Shown here piece by piece: positions 5,211 to 49,118 of a stretch of 64,000 nucleotides of DNA. Numbering within the stretch: the stretch's first letter is position 1; every line of letters begins with the position of its first letter. A model generated the notes under the pieces. It searched no databases, was not told the DNA's origin, and worked only from the letters and a program-made list of their open reading frames with translations. The stretch comes from Kosakonia radicincitans DSM 16656 (lineage in GTDB: Bacteria > Pseudomonadota > Gammaproteobacteria > Enterobacterales > Enterobacteriaceae): assembly GCF_000280495.2 (NCBI RefSeq), contig NZ_CP018016.1, positions 3,596,001 to 3,660,000 on the forward strand, written 5' to 3'. The position numbers and the translations under genes are program-made.

Positions 5211-5573
5211 ATGTTAAAGCTATTTAGTCGTTACGTTTCTGTTGGTGTGTTGAACACGGCTATTCATTGGTTATGCTTTGCTGCCATGCTTCACTTTTTT
5301 GATGCCAGCCAGGCAATTGCCAATGTTGTGGCATTCTGCGTTGCGGTGACATTTAGCTTCTTCGCAAATGCCAGATTCACTTTCAACTCTCAGGCTACAA
5401 CCGGTCGTTACATTGCGTTCGTGGCATTTATGGGAGTGATGGCAATGCTCACAGGTTTTATCGCAGATCAATTTAATGCTCCACCACTGGTAACGCTCAT
5501 TGCGTTCTCTGCGTTCAGCCTTGTAGCCGGGTTTATTTACTCAAAACTCATTGTGTTTAGAGATGCGAAATGA
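5211..5573 (+). CDS. gtrA: GtrA-family flippase for bactoprenol-linked glucose
   Basis: A 120-residue protein with four predicted membrane helices and the GtrA signature near the N-terminus ([20 protein letters not shown]) and [10 protein letters not shown] in the middle. GtrA proteins move undecaprenyl-phosphate-glucose from the cytoplasmic to the periplasmic face of the inner membrane. It is the first gene of a gtr operon and its stop overlaps the gtrB start (ATGA). No strong Shine-Dalgarno is visible. Phages use this operon to change the O-antigen and block superinfection at the receptor. Confidence 0.93.
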
Positions 5574-6511
5574 AAATTTCTCTGGTCGTTCCCGTCTTCA
5601 ACGAAGAAGACACAATACCTATTTTTTATAAAACCGTGAGGGAGTTTGACGAGTTAAAAGATTACGAAGTTGAAATACTTTTCATCAATGACGGCAGCAA
5701 AGATGCCACAGAGTCGATTATTCAGGCTCTTGCTGTTAGCGATCCTCTTGTGGTTCCGCTCTCATTTACGCGTAATTTCGGGAAAGAGCCGGCGCTTTTT
5801 GCAGGTCTTGACAATGCAACAGGTGACGCAGTAATTCCGATTGATGTCGATTTACAGGACCCTGTTCAGGTCATTCCTCAGCTTATAGAAAAATGGCAAG
5901 CCGGTGCTGATATGGTTCTGGCAAAAAGGACTGATCGCTCAACTGATGGTCGCCTTAAACGTAAAACTGCTGAATGGTTCTATAAGCTTCACAACAAGAT
6001 CAGCGATCCAAAGATTGAAGAAAACGTCGGAGATTTCCGGCTGATGTCCCGCGAAGTAGTAGAGAATATTAAACGCATGCCAGAACGCAACTTGTTCATG
6101 AAAGGAGTGCTTAGCTGGGTTGGCGGAAAAACTGACGTAGTGGAATATGCGCGATCCGAGCGAGTAGCCGGGACGTCGAAATTTAATGGCTGGAAGCTAT
6201 GGAATCTGGCACTGGAAGGCATAACCAGTTTCTCTACTTTTCCGCTGCGCATGTGGACGTATATCGGTCTTTTTGTCGCCGGGATGGCTTTTCTTTACGG
6301 GGCGTGGATGGTTTTAGATACGCTGGCTTTCGGTAATCAGGTGAGAGGGTATCCGTCACTGCTTGTATCAATACTTTTCCTGGGGGGTATTCAATTGATA
6401 GGGATCGGTGTTCTTGGGGAATATATTGGCAGGATTTATATTGAAACCAAAAGAAGACCTAAATACTTAATAAAAAACAAAATCATAACCACTCAAGGAA
6501 AAATAAAATGA
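5570..6511 (+). CDS. gtrB: GtrB bactoprenol glucosyl transferase
   Basis: A 313-residue GT2 glycosyltransferase: N-terminal catalytic domain with [14 protein letters not shown] and a DVDLQDP acid cluster (about residues 90-96), then two C-terminal membrane helices (about 230-255 and 262-290). It transfers glucose from UDP-glucose to undecaprenyl phosphate on the inner membrane. It is translationally coupled to gtrA and to the following gene by 4-bp overlaps. Length and motifs are standard for the family. Confidence 0.95.
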
Positions 6512-7995
6512 TTACTGGTATTAGGAATGGTAAGTTTACGTTTATTTTATTGCTTGTAATTTCAGCAATTACTCTTTTTTTCTTTTTGTTTGCACACCCA
6601 ACCGTAATTATTTCAGGTGATGACTGGGGCAACCTGATAGTTAGAAGAGGATTATATCCTCAATGGGGTATTACCAACCCAATTAAAGTAATGCCAGAAA
6701 TAGGTTACCCGTTCTTTTCAAGATTATCAATAAAACTAATAATGCCATTTGGTTTTGGTTTTCTTGAATCTTTCTCAATAATCACTGCGATATTTATAAC
6801 AATATTAATGGCGGTGCTTTTCAATCAGCTATATAAATTATTTGCAATAGATTTTGAGTCTGGCTTTTATAGAGCATATCTTCTTGTGGCGATCGAGTAT
6901 TCGCTAATATTTTTATTGTTCAGGAAGAGCGGTAACCACGAAAGCCTTTATATGCTGTGGGAGGTTAACATAACATGCTTTTATCATTACATAGCCCCAG
7001 CGTTAATAAACTCAGCACTTGCAATTTACATAATAAGGAAATGGGATTCTCTTTCAATTGACCATTTTAAAAGAAATGGTATTATTTTTTCTTTATCTTT
7101 AATTTTATTTTCATACATTTCTATTTATTCAAGCTTATTTGCTAACGTAATTCTTGCAGTTGTATGTGGAGTATGTTGCCTGGTCATTTTCATAGATAGC
7201 AGGCTTTCTTTGTTATCAACCTTAAGAAAATGTCCATTGCAGATACTGACACTGTTAATGTGGGTGGTTTCTTTAATATTTGAAGCTAATGGCGGGCGCG
7301 CAAACAGCGTTGCTAATGCAAAACTTGATATCGATGGGTCAATTAAAGTCTTTGGTGACTTGATAAGCCAAATAAACCCAGTATTTATCTATAGCGGTAT
7401 ATTTTTAATTATTTATGGATTATTCATATCAGTTAAAACATTGCTTTCCAGAGCACAAAAAAGAAATGCAATTATCTTCATAATAACATTTATCTCTGCA
7501 TTGATAGTTACGGTAGCGTTATTAATTCTGTGTTCAAAGGCAGGAAGTTATTATGCGGCAAGGCCTGTTGCTATGTGGGGTGTTTTCTTGTTTTCTTCTG
7601 CTTGCGCAATGATGGCACTTGATTATGTTTCAAATAAATATAAAAAGCACGCAAATATAATACTTTCACTTATTGTAATGTTAATGATTTATAAAAACAC
7701 TTCATCAGACTCCACTCTTAAGGAGTCAATAAATCTTAATTTAAGTTATGAAAAGGCTATTAATATAAGTCAGGGAATAATAGATCAGGTAGTAGAGGCA
7801 GATAAGAACAACAAAGGAAGAATGATTTTAATTGTACCAAAAGCAGATAGCGTGAATAACTGGCCATTCCCTATTTACGGTGGAACATTCATTAATGATT
7901 CACTTAAAAAATACAAGTTCATATCTAACAACATGTATATTGAGGTTAAGCCAGATCCAGAAGTTAACGAAAAAATGGGGATACCTTTTAAATAA
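6508..7995 (+). CDS. Serotype-specific O-antigen glucosyltransferase (Gtr type III gene)
   Basis: A 495-residue polytopic membrane protein (about 10-11 hydrophobic helices) with an early periplasmic-loop motif GDDWGNL and a soluble C-terminal tail, as in phage GtrC/GtrX-type enzymes that glucosylate O-antigen repeat units in the periplasm. The third gtr gene is always the most divergent and sets the serotype, so the sugar linkage cannot be predicted. The coding sequence is notably AT-rich compared with gtrA/gtrB, which fits independent transfer. A bidirectional terminator follows. Confidence 0.85.
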
Positions 7996-27189: not shown

Positions 27190-28856
27190 TAACCCCCCTG
27201 AAGAGCAGGTGAAGGCGCAGGAGTCTGCGCAATCTGATTGGCCTGGGCGAAATCTTTTGCAGCGGTGGCGGCAACCGGCGCAGCGGCAAGCAACTGCTGA
27301 AGCTGTAACTGCTGTTGATCGGCAGCATCCTGCTCAGCCATTTCATCTTCGGTTTTGATGATCTGCACTGGTGCGCCGCTGGCTTTGGCAATAAAGCGCA
27401 GGGCCGCATCAGGATTCAGCGTTCTTGCCAAATTCTGATCGAACTGGCCGATGGTGCCGGCGGCGTTGATAACGTTCATGATGCCGGTAGCCTCTTCGCT
27501 CATTTGCAGGCGCACCAGCGGGCTGGTGTATTCGATGTCGTATTCGTAATTTGCGCGTACCAGTTGTTCCGGCGGCTCAGGAAGCAGGCCATTCTGATAG
27601 GCAATGTCGATCTCGCGAAGGATGAGCGTCCCCAGAAACTCGGCCTGAATTCGCCCGGCGGTGGGTGCCAGCAACTGGCCTTTTTCCTGCGCGCGCAACA
27701 TCGCTTCGGTGGCGGTCATTTGCGGGTTATCGACGAGGATCTGGAACAGCGTGATGAAAAAGCCATCATTGATGGTCTGGCGTTTCTGCTCTGCCAGTGT
27801 CAGCGCTACGCTGAAATCTGTTGATGTGTTCAGCGGCATCGCCAGTTGTTTGCCATCACGCCCCACGCCGCCAAAATTGAGCGCGCCGGGCATCATTTTG
27901 AACGGCTGCAAAATGCCGTCTTCCGGCAAAAGCATCGGCGGGCGAACAGCCATCTGCGCGCCCTCAATAATGGCCCGGTTGATTTCGTTCAGCAGCTTAA
28001 TATCTGGCAGCACAACCATTGCCGGGGAACGTCCGTAAGTCTCGCCCGGCGCGGTGTAGTAACGGCTGATTGCGTAGGGTTGCGACCAGTAGCCGCCCTC
28101 CTGCACAATTTTCGTGCCCTCAAGACAAATATGCACAGACCGGAACGGCATGCCCTCTTTGTCCTGTCGTGACACGTCACGTTTATCATTTGGCTCGACG
28201 CGATGCAGGAAATTGAATGTCTGTGACGGGTTACTTTTGGCTGCGGTTTTCACCATCGAAGGCAAAGCATCTTCCCCGAACTGCTGAATAGCCTGGCGCG
28301 CGGTCATGCAATATTTCCGGTGGACGATATCGATCATCCCCTGGAAATTCTCGGTGAAGTAGATTTCGCGCAGGTGATAGGTGCAGTAGCGCGGCCCCTT
28401 CCCCGTCACGTTATCAACGAACGTGCAGCCGGTACCGAATGCGCCAGCGGAAATGTAATGCTCGTGGGATTGAGAGGCAAAATTCGCCCAGGGTGCATAG
28501 CGGAGCCGGAAGAGAATATCCCGCACATCCTGAAAATAACGCTGGACCTCTTCATCGTTCACAAACTTCTCGTTGCTCAGCGTGTGCCATTTCTGCGTTC
28601 TGGGTGTGATAACTGATTCAATGGCCGCCCCGAATTTTTGCAGCGCCAGCGCGCCGGTGGCATCGATGGCTTTTTCAGTACGCTTTCCGCCCTTCTGCCG
28701 GGTTCCCTTAAATTCAGCGCTGCGCGGCAATATGCGCTCGGCAATCTCCTGCCAGTGCTGTTCGAACACAGAGCGCTCTGTCTCCATGCTCTTTTGCTCG
28801 CGCAGGATACTGGCGATGCGCTCAGTTTCGCTTTTATCGATCTTCATATCGGACAT
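27189..28856 (-). CDS. Portal (head-to-tail connector) protein
   Basis: A 555-residue podovirus portal of the head-to-tail connector family: ERSVFEQHWQEIAERILPRS near the N-terminus, ALQKFGAAIESVITPRTQKW, and a Gln/Ala-rich C-terminal tail. Twelve copies form the DNA entry channel and terminase dock. Start overlaps the terminase stop (TAATG). Size matches epsilon15 gp4. Confidence 0.92.
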   Translation of the reverse strand: MSDMKIDKSETERIASILREQKSMETERSVFEQHWQEIAERILPRSAEFKGTRQKGGKRTEKAIDATGALALQKFGAAIESVITPRTQKWHTLSNEKFVNDEEVQRYFQDVRDILFRLRYAPWANFASQSHEHYISAGAFGTGCTFVDNVTGKGPRYCTYHLREIYFTENFQGMIDIVHRKYCMTARQAIQQFGEDALPSMVKTAAKSNPSQTFNFLHRVEPNDKRDVSRQDKEGMPFRSVHICLEGTKIVQEGGYWSQPYAISRYYTAPGETYGRSPAMVVLPDIKLLNEINRAIIEGAQMAVRPPMLLPEDGILQPFKMMPGALNFGGVGRDGKQLAMPLNTSTDFSVALTLAEQKRQTINDGFFITLFQILVDNPQMTATEAMLRAQEKGQLLAPTAGRIQAEFLGTLILREIDIAYQNGLLPEPPEQLVRANYEYDIEYTSPLVRLQMSEEATGIMNVINAAGTIGQFDQNLARTLNPDAALRFIAKASGAPVQIIKTEDEMAEQDAADQQQLQLQQLLAAAPVAATAAKDFAQANQIAQTPAPSPALQGG

Positions 28857-30253
28857 TAGTTATCCCCGTACAGATCCCAGGATGACTCAGCGTTAAACTG
28901 CTGGCCGTATCCGGGTGGGTTATATGGATCGTAAGCAGACTGGGCAAATTGCTGTGTGGTGGCGCGGTTTCCGCTGCGCAGCGACTTGCTGCCTACAGCG
29001 CCATAGCGGAATGAATCACTGCCGTGTGACGTCCAGTTGTGTAGCGGCGTTGGCTTGTACATCTTGCGCACTTCGTCCCATTCTTTCTGGTACTGCCCCA
29101 GCGCCTCCAGCCCTTTTTCACATTTGGTTTTGTCGAACCAGCAGGAGCGCAACATCATGCGTACCTCGCTGATCCCGTCATCTACGGAAGATGCAGGAAG
29201 AACTTTGCAGCGGATCCCGAGTTTACCGAGCGTCTCTTCACGCGATGCCCCAGTGCTCAGTTCCCGCGCGCGGACGTCATGCGGGAAGAAATGCCTTTCA
29301 GCGTAGGTATAGGGTTTTTCGCGCAGGTGTTTAACGTAATGCTCAAGGCCGACGCCAGAACTCTCGTAATAATCGATAACCCGAGTTTCTTTGCCGATGA
29401 ACTGATAAAACCAGATTGCGGTTGCGTCACCGATGCCCAGATCCCACGAGGTGTAAACTTCGTATTGTGGATCCCATGGCACATTTCCTATCTGCCCGAG
29501 TTTTTCCAGTTCCACCAGAATTGACGAGTAATATGCGCCGGGAATCGCGGCATTCCAGTCGCACATGTATTCCTGGTTAAAAAGCGCCAGCCCCTCATCT
29601 TCCCCACGCTCTTCCTGCATTTCGCGCAGTTCCTGCGCCAGCGTTTCAGCCGGGATATGCTGCGTAATGTCTGCGCTGAGATGGTCGCAAAGCCAGTTAT
29701 CCGGATCTTTCAGGCCACCCTGAAACATTTTGTAGAAGTGGTTCTTGCCGCGTGGCGTCGAAACGAAAAAAGCCCAGCCGCCGTTATCGGCCAGGATAGG
29801 ACGCAGGAAGGCCCATGCTGCGGGATTACTCAGCGCCCATTCAGAAAACACGATTCCCACATGCCCGGAACCAATCAACGAGGCGTAGTTATCGCTGCCA
29901 ACGGCCTGCCATGTTGAGCCGTTGACGAATTCGATCATCATTTCGTTGTCGAGCGTCTTGCGGCGTATTTCTTTCGGGAAAGCCTCATCAATGCGCAATT
30001 GGCCGGTGCGCGGGTTGATCGCTGTCCAGATAGCCTTGCGAACCTGATTCGCCTGCGGCAGACAATGCGCATAGTTCCCCACACGCTCAAATGCTTTGCA
30101 TGCGGTCATGTGCAGGCTGAAATCATCTTTGCCATAACGGCGCGGCCAGCACAAAGCGGCACGCTTGATATTGCCTTCCTGAATGGCAGACCATGCCCGG
30201 CGCTGGTGTGGGCGTGGTGTCCAGTTGTTCGCGGGTAGGATAATTTCTGCCAT
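28856..30253 (-). CDS. Terminase large subunit
   Basis: A 465-residue packaging motor: ATPase domain with a Walker A-like motif WPRRYGKDD at about 36-44 and a Walker B-like segment VGIVFSEW, then a nuclease domain whose first Asp lies in SWDLGIGDAT (about 260-270). It cuts and pumps DNA into the procapsid. It lies between small terminase and portal. Confidence 0.93.
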   Translation of the reverse strand: MAEIILPANNWTPRPHQRRAWSAIQEGNIKRAALCWPRRYGKDDFSLHMTACKAFERVGNYAHCLPQANQVRKAIWTAINPRTGQLRIDEAFPKEIRRKTLDNEMMIEFVNGSTWQAVGSDNYASLIGSGHVGIVFSEWALSNPAAWAFLRPILADNGGWAFFVSTPRGKNHFYKMFQGGLKDPDNWLCDHLSADITQHIPAETLAQELREMQEERGEDEGLALFNQEYMCDWNAAIPGAYYSSILVELEKLGQIGNVPWDPQYEVYTSWDLGIGDATAIWFYQFIGKETRVIDYYESSGVGLEHYVKHLREKPYTYAERHFFPHDVRARELSTGASREETLGKLGIRCKVLPASSVDDGISEVRMMLRSCWFDKTKCEKGLEALGQYQKEWDEVRKMYKPTPLHNWTSHGSDSFRYGAVGSKSLRSGNRATTQQFAQSAYDPYNPPGYGQQFNAESSWDLYGDN

Positions 30254-30337
30254 CTATTCACGTCCTATTCACTTCAATGGATAAAATGCCGGGATTTTTC
30301 CCACTTCACCGATTAGCCAGGCAATAAAAACGCCTGG

Positions 30338-30790
30338 TTATTCTTTCTCGCGGAAATGTTTTACTTTGACGGTGAGGTCGAGATCGCCTTCGACAGATTT
30401 TTTATCCGTAAGGCCAAGCTCTCTTGCGATGATGTTTGCGTTGAGAAGATCAGCAGCCGCGCCAGAAAATTTCTGTTCGTAAATGAGGTTTTCCACTCGC
30501 GTAGTGACTGGGAGAAAATCTTTTTTCTTGCTGTAGGCTTCCCACGTTTTCCGGTCGATATCGAGGAACAGAAACAGGCCGCCAAGCGTCATGGCGCGCA
30601 TTTTTGGGAGTGTGGCTTTAGTGACGGTGCCCTGAAATGCAAAAGCTTTGGTTTCCCACAGCGGATGTTTTTCCACCCACTCGAAATACTCACAGCATGC
30701 ATCCCATAGTTTTTCCGGGTCAGTAAATTTTGGATTTCTTCCATGCTTGCTACGGGCAAGCCAGAATTTATTTCCTTTTGGCGCGGCCAT
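30338..30790 (-). CDS. Terminase small subunit (Gp3-like packaging protein)
   Basis: A 150-residue protein with [21 protein letters not shown] and a helix-turn-helix-like region ([20 protein letters not shown]), ending in a basic KVKHFREKE tail. This layout is typical of Gp3-type small terminases that recognise the packaging site. An inverted repeat (CCAGGC/GCCTGG near 30317-30342) lies just past its stop. Confidence 0.85.
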
Positions 30791-31109: not shown

Positions 31110-31313
31110 TCAGGGTAAAAGATCCATTGCTGCCATAACGATCCGTAGCTCTGGCGCGTCGCCGTTTTTTACCGCTTTCAGAATTACGCGGTCAGAATTG
31201 CCATTCATGTAAGCGGCTGCGCCATACATTGCGGTGTTGATGTGGGCTTTCAGAAATCGCTCTTTCATCAGCGCGAGCAGTTTCTTTGCTTCTTCATCGG
31301 TCAGGGTGATCAT
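31110..31313 (-). CDS. Hypothetical phage protein
   Basis: A 67-residue helical protein (LTDEEAKKLLALMKERFLKA) without recognisable motif. It lies in line with late genes 13 bp before the next one. A 7-bp stem-loop (AAGGCCA/TGGCCTT) lies upstream at about 31341-31365, separating it from the Tad2-like gene. Confidence 0.55.
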   Translation of the reverse strand: MITLTDEEAKKLLALMKERFLKAHINTAMYGAAAYMNGNSDRVILKAVKNGDAPELRIVMAAMDLLP

Positions 31314-31373: not shown

Positions 31374-31889
31374 TCACTCGATAATGATCCAGTCATCAGC
31401 CAGAACATCGGTCTGACTCGCCAGCCAGCCGGTGACCGTAGAACCATCAGCAGAACACATGTTGATGTTTGGCAGGCGGGTAAATACATTGCCTTCGTAT
31501 GCATCGAAAAAAGCAGTGCTGACGCCTTGAATGTGTGAAACAGGCGGCTCCCCCGCAAATGCACCACGATTAAGCCACAGATACATTCCCTTCCCGTTCC
31601 ACCCTGAGCGTGCAACGCGTTTGCCGAGCTTTAACGCTTCAATAGCCAGGCCAAAACTCAGGCCGGATACCGGACGATATGCCTTGTCGAAAACGTCTTT
31701 CGGCGACCATGAGATATAACCGTCAAAGCGATCCGTGTTGGGTTTGCCGCCGTCCAGGTACTCAACCAGATAACCTTCATCCTCACCGTTCTCGTCGGCC
31801 GGAAGTTTCCAGCCGCGAAGCTCGTTGTACGCGGTGCGGGTCATCGGATATGCGTTGATTAATTTCATGCCAATAAATTTCTGTGTCAT
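31374..31889 (-). CDS. DUF2829 protein, Tad2-like anti-Thoeris nucleotide sponge (predicted)
   Basis: A 171-residue protein. Residues about 77-171 form a DUF2829 domain: LSFGLAIEALKLGKRVARSG, then WNGKGMYLWLN and the closing TGWLASQTDVLADDWIIIE. This family includes phage Tad2, which binds the cyclic ADP-ribose-type signal made by Thoeris and so blocks the defence. Residues 1-75 form an extra N-terminal region (MKLINAYPMTRTAYNELRGW) often fused to this domain in phages. It is adjacent to an Acb2-like sponge gene. The family call is firm; the ligand is inferred. Confidence 0.78.
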   Translation of the reverse strand: MTQKFIGMKLINAYPMTRTAYNELRGWKLPADENGEDEGYLVEYLDGGKPNTDRFDGYISWSPKDVFDKAYRPVSGLSFGLAIEALKLGKRVARSGWNGKGMYLWLNRGAFAGEPPVSHIQGVSTAFFDAYEGNVFTRLPNINMCSADGSTVTGWLASQTDVLADDWIIIE

Positions 31890-31924
31890 TCAGGCTTCCT
31901 CTTTATGGGGTGAGACATGGTTAT

Positions 31925-32209
31925 TTAACAATCAGCATCCGGACGGGCTACTGCACGACTCGCCCACATACAGGCTTCCTGCATTTTGGTCCGAGCGATT
32001 GCCAGGCAGCGCAATGCTTCTGCGCGTTCTGTTTCAGACTTATGGCCGCGCGCAACAACTTCAGCCACCAGGCATTCGTGCTCGGTATCCAGCAGGCTGC
32101 AAAAATGACGGCTGATGTCTTTGAAGCGGTTCATTCGCTCAATATCGCCCGGGGTTAAAGTGCGGTAGCCCTTAACCGTGGTGCCGTCCTGCGGTTTTGC
32201 TTCATTCAT
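31925..32209 (-). CDS. Acb2/Tad1-family cyclic-nucleotide sponge (predicted anti-CBASS)
   Basis: A 94-residue helical protein with the family pattern: VKGYRTLTPGDIERMN near the N-terminus and LAIARTKMQEACMWASRAVA at the C-terminus, followed by RPDADC. The second block closely matches the conserved end of phage Acb2 (IAKTK..EASMW..RAV). Acb2 hexamers sequester CBASS cyclic di- and trinucleotides, and the related Tad1 binds Thoeris signals. Its start overlaps the stop of a winged-helix gene (ATGA) and it is followed by the Tad2-like gene. Activity is predicted, not shown. Confidence 0.82.
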   Translation of the reverse strand: MNEAKPQDGTTVKGYRTLTPGDIERMNRFKDISRHFCSLLDTEHECLVAEVVARGHKSETERAEALRCLAIARTKMQEACMWASRAVARPDADC

Positions 32210-32562
32210 TGGTTTTCCTCAGTGGGTGGTTGTCGAACACCCCGCAAAAGCTGGGTGATCATGTAGTTTTTGCTGTTGCGTCGGCAGGATTCGAAAAAGT
32301 CCTCACGCTTGCCCATTGGGGCTTTTTTCCCGCCAAATTGTTCAGCCAGTTCTGGCGTTGAGAAATAAATGCGCCGGGAATTTCGGCCTATTTCGTTGTG
32401 CGCGCGGAATATGAGATTTTCTTTCAGCAGGCTATCCAGAACGTAAAATACGGTGCTGCGCGGCATACCGAGGGAATACATCACCTCAGCAGATGTCACG
32501 CCGCCGGAACAGGTGCGAATAAGCTCCAGCACCGCCGATTTTTTCCTGGTTAAACCCGGCAC
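32206..32562 (-). CDS. Winged-helix DNA-binding protein
   Basis: About 118 residues from a GTG at 32562 (AAGG upstream), which overlaps the Ref-like stop. A winged-helix fold is indicated by SAVLELIRTCSGGVTSAEVM and YSLGMPRSTVFYVLDSLLKE followed by a wing (RNSRRIYFS). It overlaps the Acb2-like start by 4 bp. It could be a late regulator or control the anti-defence genes. A longer upstream frame is discounted because it would overlap the nuclease gene throughout. Confidence 0.65.
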   Translation of the reverse strand: MPGLTRKKSAVLELIRTCSGGVTSAEVMYSLGMPRSTVFYVLDSLLKENLIFRAHNEIGRNSRRIYFSTPELAEQFGGKKAPMGKREDFFESCRRNSKNYMITQLLRGVRQPPTEENQ

Positions 32563-32852
32563 AGGCGCAATACCTTCACTTCTGCCACAACCTGATCGAG
32601 CAGTTGCAGCTCGCTGCCATACAATCCTTCCCAATGTTTTTGTCCGGCATGAATGGCTACGCCGTAGCCGCCAGTTCGATGGTGAGCAGGGCAAAGCGGG
32701 AGTGTTTTTTTATGGTCGGCGCGCTGGCCCGCGCCCTGCCCTGTGCGGATGTGGTGAATTTCCGCAGGTGATGCCCCAAAACCCAGATTGCGGCAAACCA
32801 CGCAACCGAGATCCGCAACGTCAGACAGCCAGTCTTTATCGTCTTTTGTCAT
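32550..32852 (-). CDS. Ref-like HNH nuclease
   Basis: A 100-residue protein with a zinc-HNH layout: CVVC (C17, C20), EIHHIRTGQGAGQRADHKKT around H33/H34, and LPLCPAHHRTG (C54, H57/H58). This matches the Ref family of phage P1 and lambdoid relatives (RecA-dependent HNH nucleases that raise recombination frequency). The start at 32852 follows the end of the DUF1367 gene. Confidence 0.82.
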   Translation of the reverse strand: MTKDDKDWLSDVADLGCVVCRNLGFGASPAEIHHIRTGQGAGQRADHKKTLPLCPAHHRTGGYGVAIHAGQKHWEGLYGSELQLLDQVVAEVKVLRLCRV

Positions 32853-32862
32853 GGTTGACGTC

Positions 32863-33459
32863 TCAGGCTGCGTAGCTGAACAGTTGAGAGGCGGCATTTT
32901 CTGCTGCCTGCTGGGTCGGGAAGTTGCGGAACAGGATGAAGTTCCAGAGGACATCGAGAACGGATTTGTAAAGCTGGGCGAATTCAATATCGTCCATTTT
33001 GGCGAACGATATTGATTTGGGTTCTTTGCGGGTGCTGCCGTCTGGCATCCGGTATTCGGTGTAAAAACCAGCCTGGATAGTTACCCATGCCCGGAAAGCT
33101 TCAAACGATTTGACGGCGCTGATATTACCGGCGCGCTTCTCTGCCTCTTCACGCAGGTATTGATCGGCCAGTTCCTCAAGCGTTTCTTCGTGACCGGCAT
33201 AATGGGCGACAAGCTGGACGTAACCCCGGACCAGTTTTTTATCTGCCGGTGAGATTGCGCCGCCGGTGGGTTGCCAGTATTCGAAACCAAGGTTGAGGAG
33301 TGAGAAAAACTTTCTGTGAAATGCTGCGTTGCGAGCCTGTTTAAAATCGGCGTAAAGCACAGCGCCCAAGCGAACTTTTTTTTCGATGAATTCGCGGGCG
33401 TCAGGAGTGGCGGGAACTAATACCCCACCAGCGGATTTGATAAATGAGTACTGCGCCAT
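32863..33459 (-). CDS. DUF1367 family phage protein
   Basis: A 198-residue protein with ARNAAFHRKFFSLLNLGFEYW near residue 45 and KSISFAKMDDIEFAQLYKSV near the C-terminus, the pattern of DUF1367 proteins common in lambdoid nin-like regions beside Ref/NinX genes. A recombination or replication accessory role is suggested by such neighbours; biochemistry is unknown to me. Confidence 0.75.
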   Translation of the reverse strand: MAQYSFIKSAGGVLVPATPDAREFIEKKVRLGAVLYADFKQARNAAFHRKFFSLLNLGFEYWQPTGGAISPADKKLVRGYVQLVAHYAGHEETLEELADQYLREEAEKRAGNISAVKSFEAFRAWVTIQAGFYTEYRMPDGSTRKEPKSISFAKMDDIEFAQLYKSVLDVLWNFILFRNFPTQQAAENAASQLFSYAA

Positions 33460-47532: not shown

Positions 47533-47715
47533 CAACCCGGAGCAGTTTTGCTCTCAGATTTCGATATCAAAATCGGTCGGCTCTCCGCCAGCGCGCGGAA
47601 AAGGACACTGACCATGTCCGATATAGCTGATTCATGCGATGCCGCCGATGACGCAATACGCAGAATGATGAGGAAAGACCATGACCAGAAACAACGATCT
47701 TCTGACCGACGCTGA
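47521..47715 (+). CDS. Possible 64-residue phage protein under hairpin control
   Basis: The ATG at 47521 has a perfect AAGGAG ribosome binding site 6 bp upstream, inside the hairpin. The frame encodes a basic N-terminal part and, from residue 32, SDIADSCDAADDAIRRMM, which recalls the first residues of small DksA/TraR-type proteins, but no zinc finger follows. It overlaps the excisionase start by 35 bp. It may be a truncated remnant. Confidence 0.4.
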   Translation: MLRWQPGAVLLSDFDIKIGRLSASARKRTLTMSDIADSCDAADDAIRRMMRKDHDQKQRSSDRR

Positions 47716-47905
47716 GCTGATCGAATTTACCGGCTATCAGAAACCGTCAAAACAACGGGAAGTATTAGACCGTGGCGGCGTTTCATACATCGAAGACCGC
47801 GAAGGCCGTCCGATGGTGACGTGGACGCACATAAACGCCGTTCTGAACGGGCAGATCACCGCGCAAGCCAGCGAAGAAGAAAAACCCGATTTCGGTGCAA
47901 TTTAA
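47681..47905 (+). CDS. Excisionase-like DUF4224 protein
   Basis: A 74-residue protein with NDLLTDAELIEFTGYQKPSK, VLDRGGVSYIEDREGRP and MVTWTHINAVL, the pattern of DUF4224 proteins (AlpA/Xis-like winged helix) encoded immediately before phage integrases. It probably bends attachment-site DNA for excision. The start follows the GAGGAAAGACCA element; the integrase starts at the next base. Confidence 0.82.
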   Translation: MTRNNDLLTDAELIEFTGYQKPSKQREVLDRGGVSYIEDREGRPMVTWTHINAVLNGQITAQASEEEKPDFGAI

Positions 47906-48925
47906 ATGGGAAGAAGCAGAAAGGATCCGGCTGATAACAGGCTTCCGCCGCGCGTATCAAAGACAAAAACACGTTACTACTACAAACCAACCTCACGCGA
48001 AACGATTACGCTGGGGCCGGTCACCCTAACCATGTCTGCTTTGTGGAAGCGCTACGAGGAAGAACGCCGTAACCACAGCGACATAATGACATTCGAAAAA
48101 CTCTGGGGAATGTTCCTTAAAAGTGCCTATTACACTGAACTGGCGATACGCACCCAGCGGGACTACCTGCAACACCAGAAAAAGCTGCTCGCTGTATTCG
48201 GTAAAGTGAAAGCCGATCTTATCAGGCCTGAAGATGTGCGCCAGTTTATGGATCGTCGTGGGGTGCAAAGCAAGAACCAGGCGAACCAGGAGATGAGCAG
48301 CATGTCTCGCGTGTACCGCTGGGGATATGAACGTGGTTATGTCAAAAGTAACCCAGCCGCTGGCGTCCGCAAATTCTCTCTCAAAGCGCGTGAGCAATAC
48401 ATCACGGACGAGGACTACCTGACAATTTATAAACATGCCGATCACGTCGTTAAAGCTGCAATGGAGATTTCCTACCTGTGCGCGGCGCGGCAAGCTGATG
48501 TTCTGGGACTGGGCTGGATGCAGATTTCTGATAAAGGGATTTTCATTCAGCAGGGCAAGACAGGGAAGAAACAGATCAAGGCCTGGACACCTCGCCTGCG
48601 CGAGGCACTGGAAACGGCACAGGTGGAATGTCCGAAACTGTCCCCTGATGGGCTTGTGATTTACAACAGCGATCGGGGCCAGTTTATCCGCAAGACCTTT
48701 AACAATCGTTGGCTTAAAGCCGTGCGCGCGGCACAAAATGAACTGGGCCGCCAGCTGGACTATACCTTCCACGATATCAAGGCTAAAGCTATTTCAGATT
48801 TTGAGGGAAGCAGCAGAGATAAACAGATTTTCAGCGGGCATAAAACAGAAAGCCAGGTGCTGATCTACGACCGAAAAGTACAAATCAGTCCGACGCTTGA
48901 TCGCCCGGTTATTGGGAAAAAGTGA
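47906..48925 (+). CDS. int: Tyrosine integrase
   Basis: A 339-residue site-specific recombinase: SAM-like core-binding domain at about 62-150, catalytic domain from about 165. Catalytic residues visible: R195 (CAARQAD), K218 (GKTGKK), H289 in FHDIKAK, H312 (SGHKTE) and Y321 (YDRKV). The usual H-x-x-R motif reads H-D-I-K, so Lys292 replaces the second Arg. Located beside attR, transcribed toward the attachment site in tRNA-Ser. Confidence 0.95.
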   Translation: MGRSRKDPADNRLPPRVSKTKTRYYYKPTSRETITLGPVTLTMSALWKRYEEERRNHSDIMTFEKLWGMFLKSAYYTELAIRTQRDYLQHQKKLLAVFGKVKADLIRPEDVRQFMDRRGVQSKNQANQEMSSMSRVYRWGYERGYVKSNPAAGVRKFSLKAREQYITDEDYLTIYKHADHVVKAAMEISYLCAARQADVLGLGWMQISDKGIFIQQGKTGKKQIKAWTPRLREALETAQVECPKLSPDGLVIYNSDRGQFIRKTFNNRWLKAVRAAQNELGRQLDYTFHDIKAKAISDFEGSSRDKQIFSGHKTESQVLIYDRKVQISPTLDRPVIGKK

Positions 48926-49022: not shown

Positions 49023-49090
49023 GTTTAATCTGGCGGAAGCGCAGAGATTCGAACTCTGGAACCCTTTCGGGTCGCCGGTTTTCAAGACCG
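49023..49090. repeat. attR: 68-bp direct repeat
   Basis: Identical to 4943-5010. It forms the 3' part of the intact tRNA-Ser gene and marks the right prophage boundary. Confidence 0.95.
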
Positions 49091-49118
49091 GTGCCTTCAA
49101 CCGCTCGGCCACACTTCC
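49031..49118 (-). tRNA. serT: tRNA-Ser (UGA)
   Basis: An 88-nt class II tRNA starting GGAAGTGTGGCCGAGCGGTT, with anticodon loop CTTGAAA (anticodon TGA), a long variable arm (GACCCGAAAGGGTT), T-arm GTTCGAATC and encoded CCA. It reads UCA and other UCN serine codons. The 3' part is supplied by the prophage attachment site. It is otherwise identical in layout to Escherichia serT. Confidence 0.98.

Follow-up and report, generated by a model that had tools for sequence, protein, structure and literature searches.

Neighbouring Acb2-like and Tad2-like genes in a Kosakonia prophage, a probable variant of a counter-defence cassette with exchangeable contents

A prophage of Kosakonia radicincitans DSM 16656 carries two small adjacent genes that belong to two families of phage sponges, Acb2 and Tad2. 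The question is whether these genes act together or share a site by chance. The window, the whole stretch of 64,000 nucleotides analysed here, contains a complete-looking temperate phage according to its gene content. We consider it probable that both genes are expressed together to form one counter-defence cassette, which would trap the signals of both CBASS and Thoeris. In sister phages the corresponding slot is either vacant or occupied by other combinations of Acb2, Acb4 and Tad2 genes, so the cassette is likely exchangeable and the pair one of its settings.

The integrase gene of the prophage (47906-48925, + strand; phrog_1, 8.6e-46) adjoins a tRNA-Ser(TGA) gene (49031-49118, ARAGORN), and the excisionase gene is located at 47681-47905 (+ strand). 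Replication genes are found at 38.5-41.2 kb, terminase genes at 28856-30790 (- strand), head and virion genes at 12.5-27 kb, and endolysin and spanin genes at 10.8-11.9 kb. Near the left end of the prophage, GtrA/GtrB-like O-antigen conversion genes (5211-6511, + strand) are present, and an unnamed gene (6508-7995) follows them. The terminase small subunit gene (30338..30790, - strand; PF16677, 9.8e-30, phrog_606) and the NinB/DUF1367 gene (32863..33459, - strand; PF07105, 2.5e-85, phrog_319) serve as backbone markers.

The acb2-like gene (31925..32209, 94 aa) and the tad2-like gene (31374..31889, 171 aa) lie between a helix-turn-helix (HTH) gene (32206..32694; phrog_4536) and a small phage gene that closes the slot at the other end (31110..31313; phrog_4508), and all four genes are on the - strand. 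As the earlier note had described, the two are same-strand neighbours, and an upstream regulator gene overlaps the first of them. According to the junction sequence, the HTH stop and the acb2 start overlap by 4 nt (ATGA). The HTH gene, whose true start codon is uncertain, matches the winged-helix family HTH_IclR (8.8e-07). The gap from the acb2 stop to the tad2 start is 35 nt and contains GAGGAAG ahead of the tad2 ATG; the terminator scan of the - strand listed none between the two genes. Transcription of both genes from the operon upstream is presumed.

The acb2 product matches PF24729 with 63.1 bits (curated cut-off 27). The C-terminal block IARTKMQEACMWASRAVA, in which a resemblance to Acb2 had been noticed earlier, aligns with IAKTKLKEASMWACRAVF of T4 Vs.4/Acb2. 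In Vs.4, the cGAMP contacts are Y8, H11, K23, R79 and F82, and the hexamer interface includes L29, F33, A66, A73 and A77, as reported in PMC10097602. In the alignment, Y8, K23 and R79 correspond to Y15, K30 and R85 of the window protein, and the interface residues A66, A73 and A77 correspond to A72, A79 and A83. Y15, K30, A72, A79 and R85 are invariant in 37 of 37 alignment rows, the window included. L29 and F33 are replaced by F and L, respectively, and H11, S74 and F82 by L18, C80 and A88. The Acb2 of PaP2, which was solved with 3'3'-cGAMP, likewise has L at the H11 position and A at the F82 position. The window protein thus shares with the Acb2 proteins of PaP2 and T4 (PDB 8h2j, 7uq2) the PF24729 helical hairpin, the pocket residues Y, K and R and the interface alanines, whereas it shows only about 31% identity, differs at T4 positions 11, 74 and 82 (L, C and A here), and is encoded next to tad2. 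The acb2 product is predicted to form a hexamer which would bind cyclic di- and trinucleotides and so serve as a sponge for CBASS signals.

In its model, the acb2 product folds into a pair of long antiparallel helices after a short N-terminus, with no strand. The PF24729 hairpin is also present in Tad1, but there an N-terminal beta1-beta4 sheet precedes it. Tad1 identity is ruled out by the lack of this sheet in the model, a feature that had been missed. Of the earlier label 'Acb2/Tad1-like', the Acb2 part therefore stands and the Tad1 part does not. Acb4 identity was also rejected, as neither window protein matches PF13876, to which Chang et al. (PMC11722364) assign the CBASS sponge Acb4.

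The tad2 product matches PF11195 with 79.1 bits (curated cut-off 25; E 3.5e-22 over residues 78-170), and the Tad2 fold is present in its model (pLDDT 92). The proposed membership of the Tad2 family is thus confirmed, and structure comparison, which the earlier note had recommended, matches the two window proteins to the Acb2 and Tad2 folds. The Tad2 domain occupies codons 77-171 (31374..31661, - strand). Codons 1-76 (31662..31889, - strand) encode a second, accessory domain that had been overlooked; it has no Pfam name, and phrog_9467 matches residues 3-75. In structure, the protein most closely matches SptTad2, which has been solved in complex with cGG, and HgmTad2/AcrIIA7, for which complexes with cADPR and with cGG exist. 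The C-terminal 95 residues share the fold and the core motifs with SptTad2, HgmTad2 (AcrIIA7) and SPO1 Tad2 (PDB 8wjd, 8kbi-8kbm, 8sme-8smg), and the motifs GWNGK and SQTDVLA-DW are kept in common with the gcADPR-binding SPO1 Tad2. In contrast to these three proteins, the window Tad2 has its own loop sequence and the extra 76-residue N-terminal domain. It is predicted to form a tetramer that would sequester gcADPR.

The loop in question is the b2-b5 insertion (codons 103-139; 31473..31583, - strand), the predicted ligand-specificity loop. Among 71 sequences, the window's included, the loop is hypervariable, with 20% mean pairwise identity and a length of 13-49 residues; the Tad2 stretch before it shows 68-73% identity. 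In the window the insertion comprises 37 residues flanked by conserved blocks, and its sequence is unlike both characterised Tad2 loops. According to a review (PMC12043709), some Tad2 members also bind cyclic dinucleotides, and in some members the site is the b2-b5 insertion. SPO1 Tad2 is described in PMC11722364 as not binding 3'3'-cGAMP. The earlier one-to-one assignment, Tad2 to Thoeris and Acb2 to CBASS, is too narrow in view of these members and of the long hypervariable loop found here.

At an E-value of 0.01, relatives of residues 1-76 of the window Tad2 were detected in 145 phage records, and nine proteins were viewed more closely for their partners. The N-terminal domain is joined to Tad2 in phage N4 and, by eye, in XG4; to PF13876 in crAss gp41; to PF13876 and PF21825 in Axy13_069; and to PF21825 (crAss001_48) in DT01 and Kc237. 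It stands nearly alone in MIF8_72 (73 aa), and the relative in NVP1185O_31 has no Pfam partner. In Yersinia phage TG1, a distant relative, which came from a structure-library match, is fused to RyR (PF02026, 3.5e-10; L469:1144-1698, - strand). The matches are weak in the cases of TG1 (E 0.0026, 38% identity), MIF8 (7e-3) and Kc237 (2e-4). Phage RyR proteins (RyDEP) degrade or sequester Thoeris signals according to PMC13232231. The TG1 protein resembles the window Tad2 in its N-terminal domain, whereas RyR takes the place of the Tad2 domain, and RyDEP is absent from the window. As the partners are Tad2, PF13876, RyR and PF21825, the domain travels with three signal-binding or signal-cleaving families and one uncharacterised family. 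We infer that phage proteins which trap signals share it as a general accessory. Fusions of the domain to PF13876 (Acb4) and/or PF21825 are those at L461, L462, L465 and L467.

Twenty backbones were compared at the slot: 17 IMG/VR contigs retrieved by scanning with the HTH protein, plus two GenBank records and the window itself. Phages BUCT708 and BUCT709 have the gene order of the window with the pair absent; compared with the window proteins, five shared genes show 73-90% identity and two show 49-55%. The slot is empty in six backbones (L001, L006, L232, L236, L246, L247) and holds acb2 only in five (L234, L235, L237, L238, L240), acb2 with an unnamed 107-aa ORF in one (L239), a PF13876 (acb4) gene only in one (L231), acb4 with tad2 in five (L241-L245), and acb2 with tad2 in two (L233 and the window); as L001/L006 and L241-L243 are near-duplicates, the events are fewer than the rows. 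PF13876 was tested in L231 (1e-33), L241 (2.6e-15), L244 and L245, and L242 and L243 were taken as identical to L241. The backbone closest to the window is that of L231, with 91-94% DNA identity on both sides. In the empty slot, the phrog_4508-type gene starts right at the HTH stop with the same kind of overlap, at the point where acb2 or acb4 starts otherwise. In BUCT708, an ATP-binding protein and RloB-domain pair (L001:2748-4399), possibly a phage-borne defence module, is located just past the shared region.

As PF13876 is Acb4, the slot alternates two unrelated CBASS sponge families; eight of eight Acb4 homologues tested in PMC11722364 bound 3'3'-cGAMP. Acb4 itself is absent from the window. 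The Tad2 loop varies separately. Loop type A occurs in L233, L241-L243 and L245, and loop type B in the window and L244, and each type is found both with acb2 and with acb4. All four combinations imply that recombination took place between the first gene of the slot and the loop of tad2, unless genes were gained repeatedly. The 107-aa ORF beside acb2 (L239:6773-7096) has no Pfam match and is a candidate counter-defence gene.

The same exchange is seen in a second phage group, in which the gene downstream of tad2 is of the Acb4 type in L155 and acb2 in L156. These two share 95.6% identity over 6.5 kb before the sponge gene and 97.0% over 5.5 kb after it, and they split just beyond the start codon, after the identical AGAGGAAAGACCAATGAG. 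The record of L153, of the same group, contains neither PF24729 nor PF13876. In phage N4, gp48 is a PF13876 protein (8.8e-35), and its gene overlaps by one base that of gp49, which consists of the N-terminal domain and Tad2 (L460:1103-1956). According to PMC11722364, SPO1 has both Tad2 and Acb4, and T4 has both Acb1 and Acb2.

Adjacency was then counted in 50 whole IMG/VR records, some of them fragments, from the best 80 of 167 tad2 loci. PF24729 was found in six records, PF13876 in 13 and both in none, and 31 of the 50 hold neither CBASS sponge. In 18 of the 19 sponge-holding records, tad2 and the Acb2 or Acb4 domain are separated by 17-351 nt; either gene can come first, and the pairs occupy several genomic contexts. 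In the exception, L178, the Acb4 match runs off one end of the record and tad2 is at the other end, as in a circular genome, although this layout does not prove one. The control, PF07105, matches nine of the 50 records, in none of them within 400 nt of tad2 (closest 989 nt, gaps by hand). As virus records are interrelated and partly fragments, these counts are not independent events.

These results bear on three other explanations. Small accessory genes could pile up by chance at permissive sites of mosaic phages, with no functional link. The six empty slots, the unnamed ORF in L239 and the frequent position of acb2 alone after lysis genes (from annotation and by eye) agree with this. A chance pile-up does not readily account for the second sponge that lies no more than 351 nt from tad2 in nearly all records holding one, or for the exchange between two unrelated CBASS sponges at the start codon, and we regard it as improbable. 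Much harder still to sustain is a mainly anti-CRISPR role of the Tad2-like protein, with its place beside acb2 due only to morons collecting in the slot. PDB entries 9kzr, 8kbi and 8kbk of the Tad2 family are named AcrIIA7 or 'inhibitor of type II CRISPR-Cas', and relatives are labelled 'anti-CRISPR protein' in some phage records, but a nucleotide-sponge gene adjoins tad2 in 18 of the 50 records and solved complexes with cyclic nucleotides exist for the family.

The remaining explanation concerns the ligand. The long-loop Tad2 could be a cyclic-dinucleotide sponge with little role against Thoeris, so that the pair would be a double anti-CBASS device. Both top structural matches were solved with cGG, and according to the review, cyclic dinucleotides are bound at the b2-b5 insertion. 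The core motifs of the gcADPR-binding SPO1 Tad2 are kept, however, and the window loop resembles neither characterised loop; we consider this explanation unlikely, although somewhat less so than the chance pile-up. A joint anti-defence island, as suggested in the earlier note, is supported by sponge genes which recur and swap at the slot and beside tad2 elsewhere.

In the cassette that we favour, the Acb2 protein would trap the cyclic di- and trinucleotides of CBASS, and the Tad2 protein would trap the ADP-ribose signals of Thoeris, perhaps with cyclic dinucleotides too. With the signals soaked up, the killing effectors of the host would stay off during phage replication; the anti-defence effect of both products is a prediction. 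The review (PMC12043709) gives the range of Acb2 as cyclic di- and trinucleotides, that of Tad2 as gcADPR and cyclic dinucleotides, and that of Tad1 alone as gcADPR and cyclic di- and trinucleotides. The ranges of Acb2 and Tad2 together would thus equal that of Tad1, in one protein there and divided between two in the window. The sponge exchanges presumably track the signals used by different hosts.

A wider scheme of combinatorial anti-signalling is put forward tentatively. Acb2 and Acb4 might be swapped at the ribosome-binding site and start codon beside tad2, and the ligand loop separately, retuning the coverage for each host; the N-terminal domain might be a universal module (an extra ligand pocket, an oligomeriser or an effector decoy), and PF21825 an undiscovered sponge or hydrolase family. 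More generally, the findings order separately discovered phage sponges into a system with rules as to neighbours, exchange points and the variable part of Tad2. It is predicted that the b2-b5 loop sets the Tad2 ligand, that the choice of acb2 or acb4 follows the CBASS chemistry of the host, and that uncharacterised slot ORFs such as that of L239, as well as the partner PF21825, are new anti-signalling proteins, for which the slot in sister phages can be mined. Taken singly, the two genes are new members of known families, and the cassette logic is the less expected part. Public annotation of relatives already reads Acb2/Tad1 and Thoeris anti-defence Tad2. A literature search of titles and abstracts found no acb2-tad2 or acb4-tad2 pair, loop exchange or N-terminal domain named; novelty in print is not claimed.

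Among 392 genomes of the host's family, PF24729 is present in 21 and PF11195 in 24; both are present in four and close together in two. PF11195 was found in none of 50 acb2-carrying virus records (50 from 80 loci). These low counts, which weigh against the cassette, indicate that the pairing is a minority state, yet the genes are neighbours in the virus records searched that hold both kinds. The host genome, which has no SMODS, TIR_2 or ThsB_TIR match, and the changes at Vs.4 positions H11, S74 and F82 likewise weigh against the cassette. In the second close case, Raoultella terrigena L070 (5960-7073), acb2 lacks its middle and a short Tad2 is 683 nt away; it looks like a remnant, with apparent traces of spanin genes upstream by eye. 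In other genomes of the family, two Tad2-domain stretches are located near each other (L034/L055 in G145, L039/L053 in G017).
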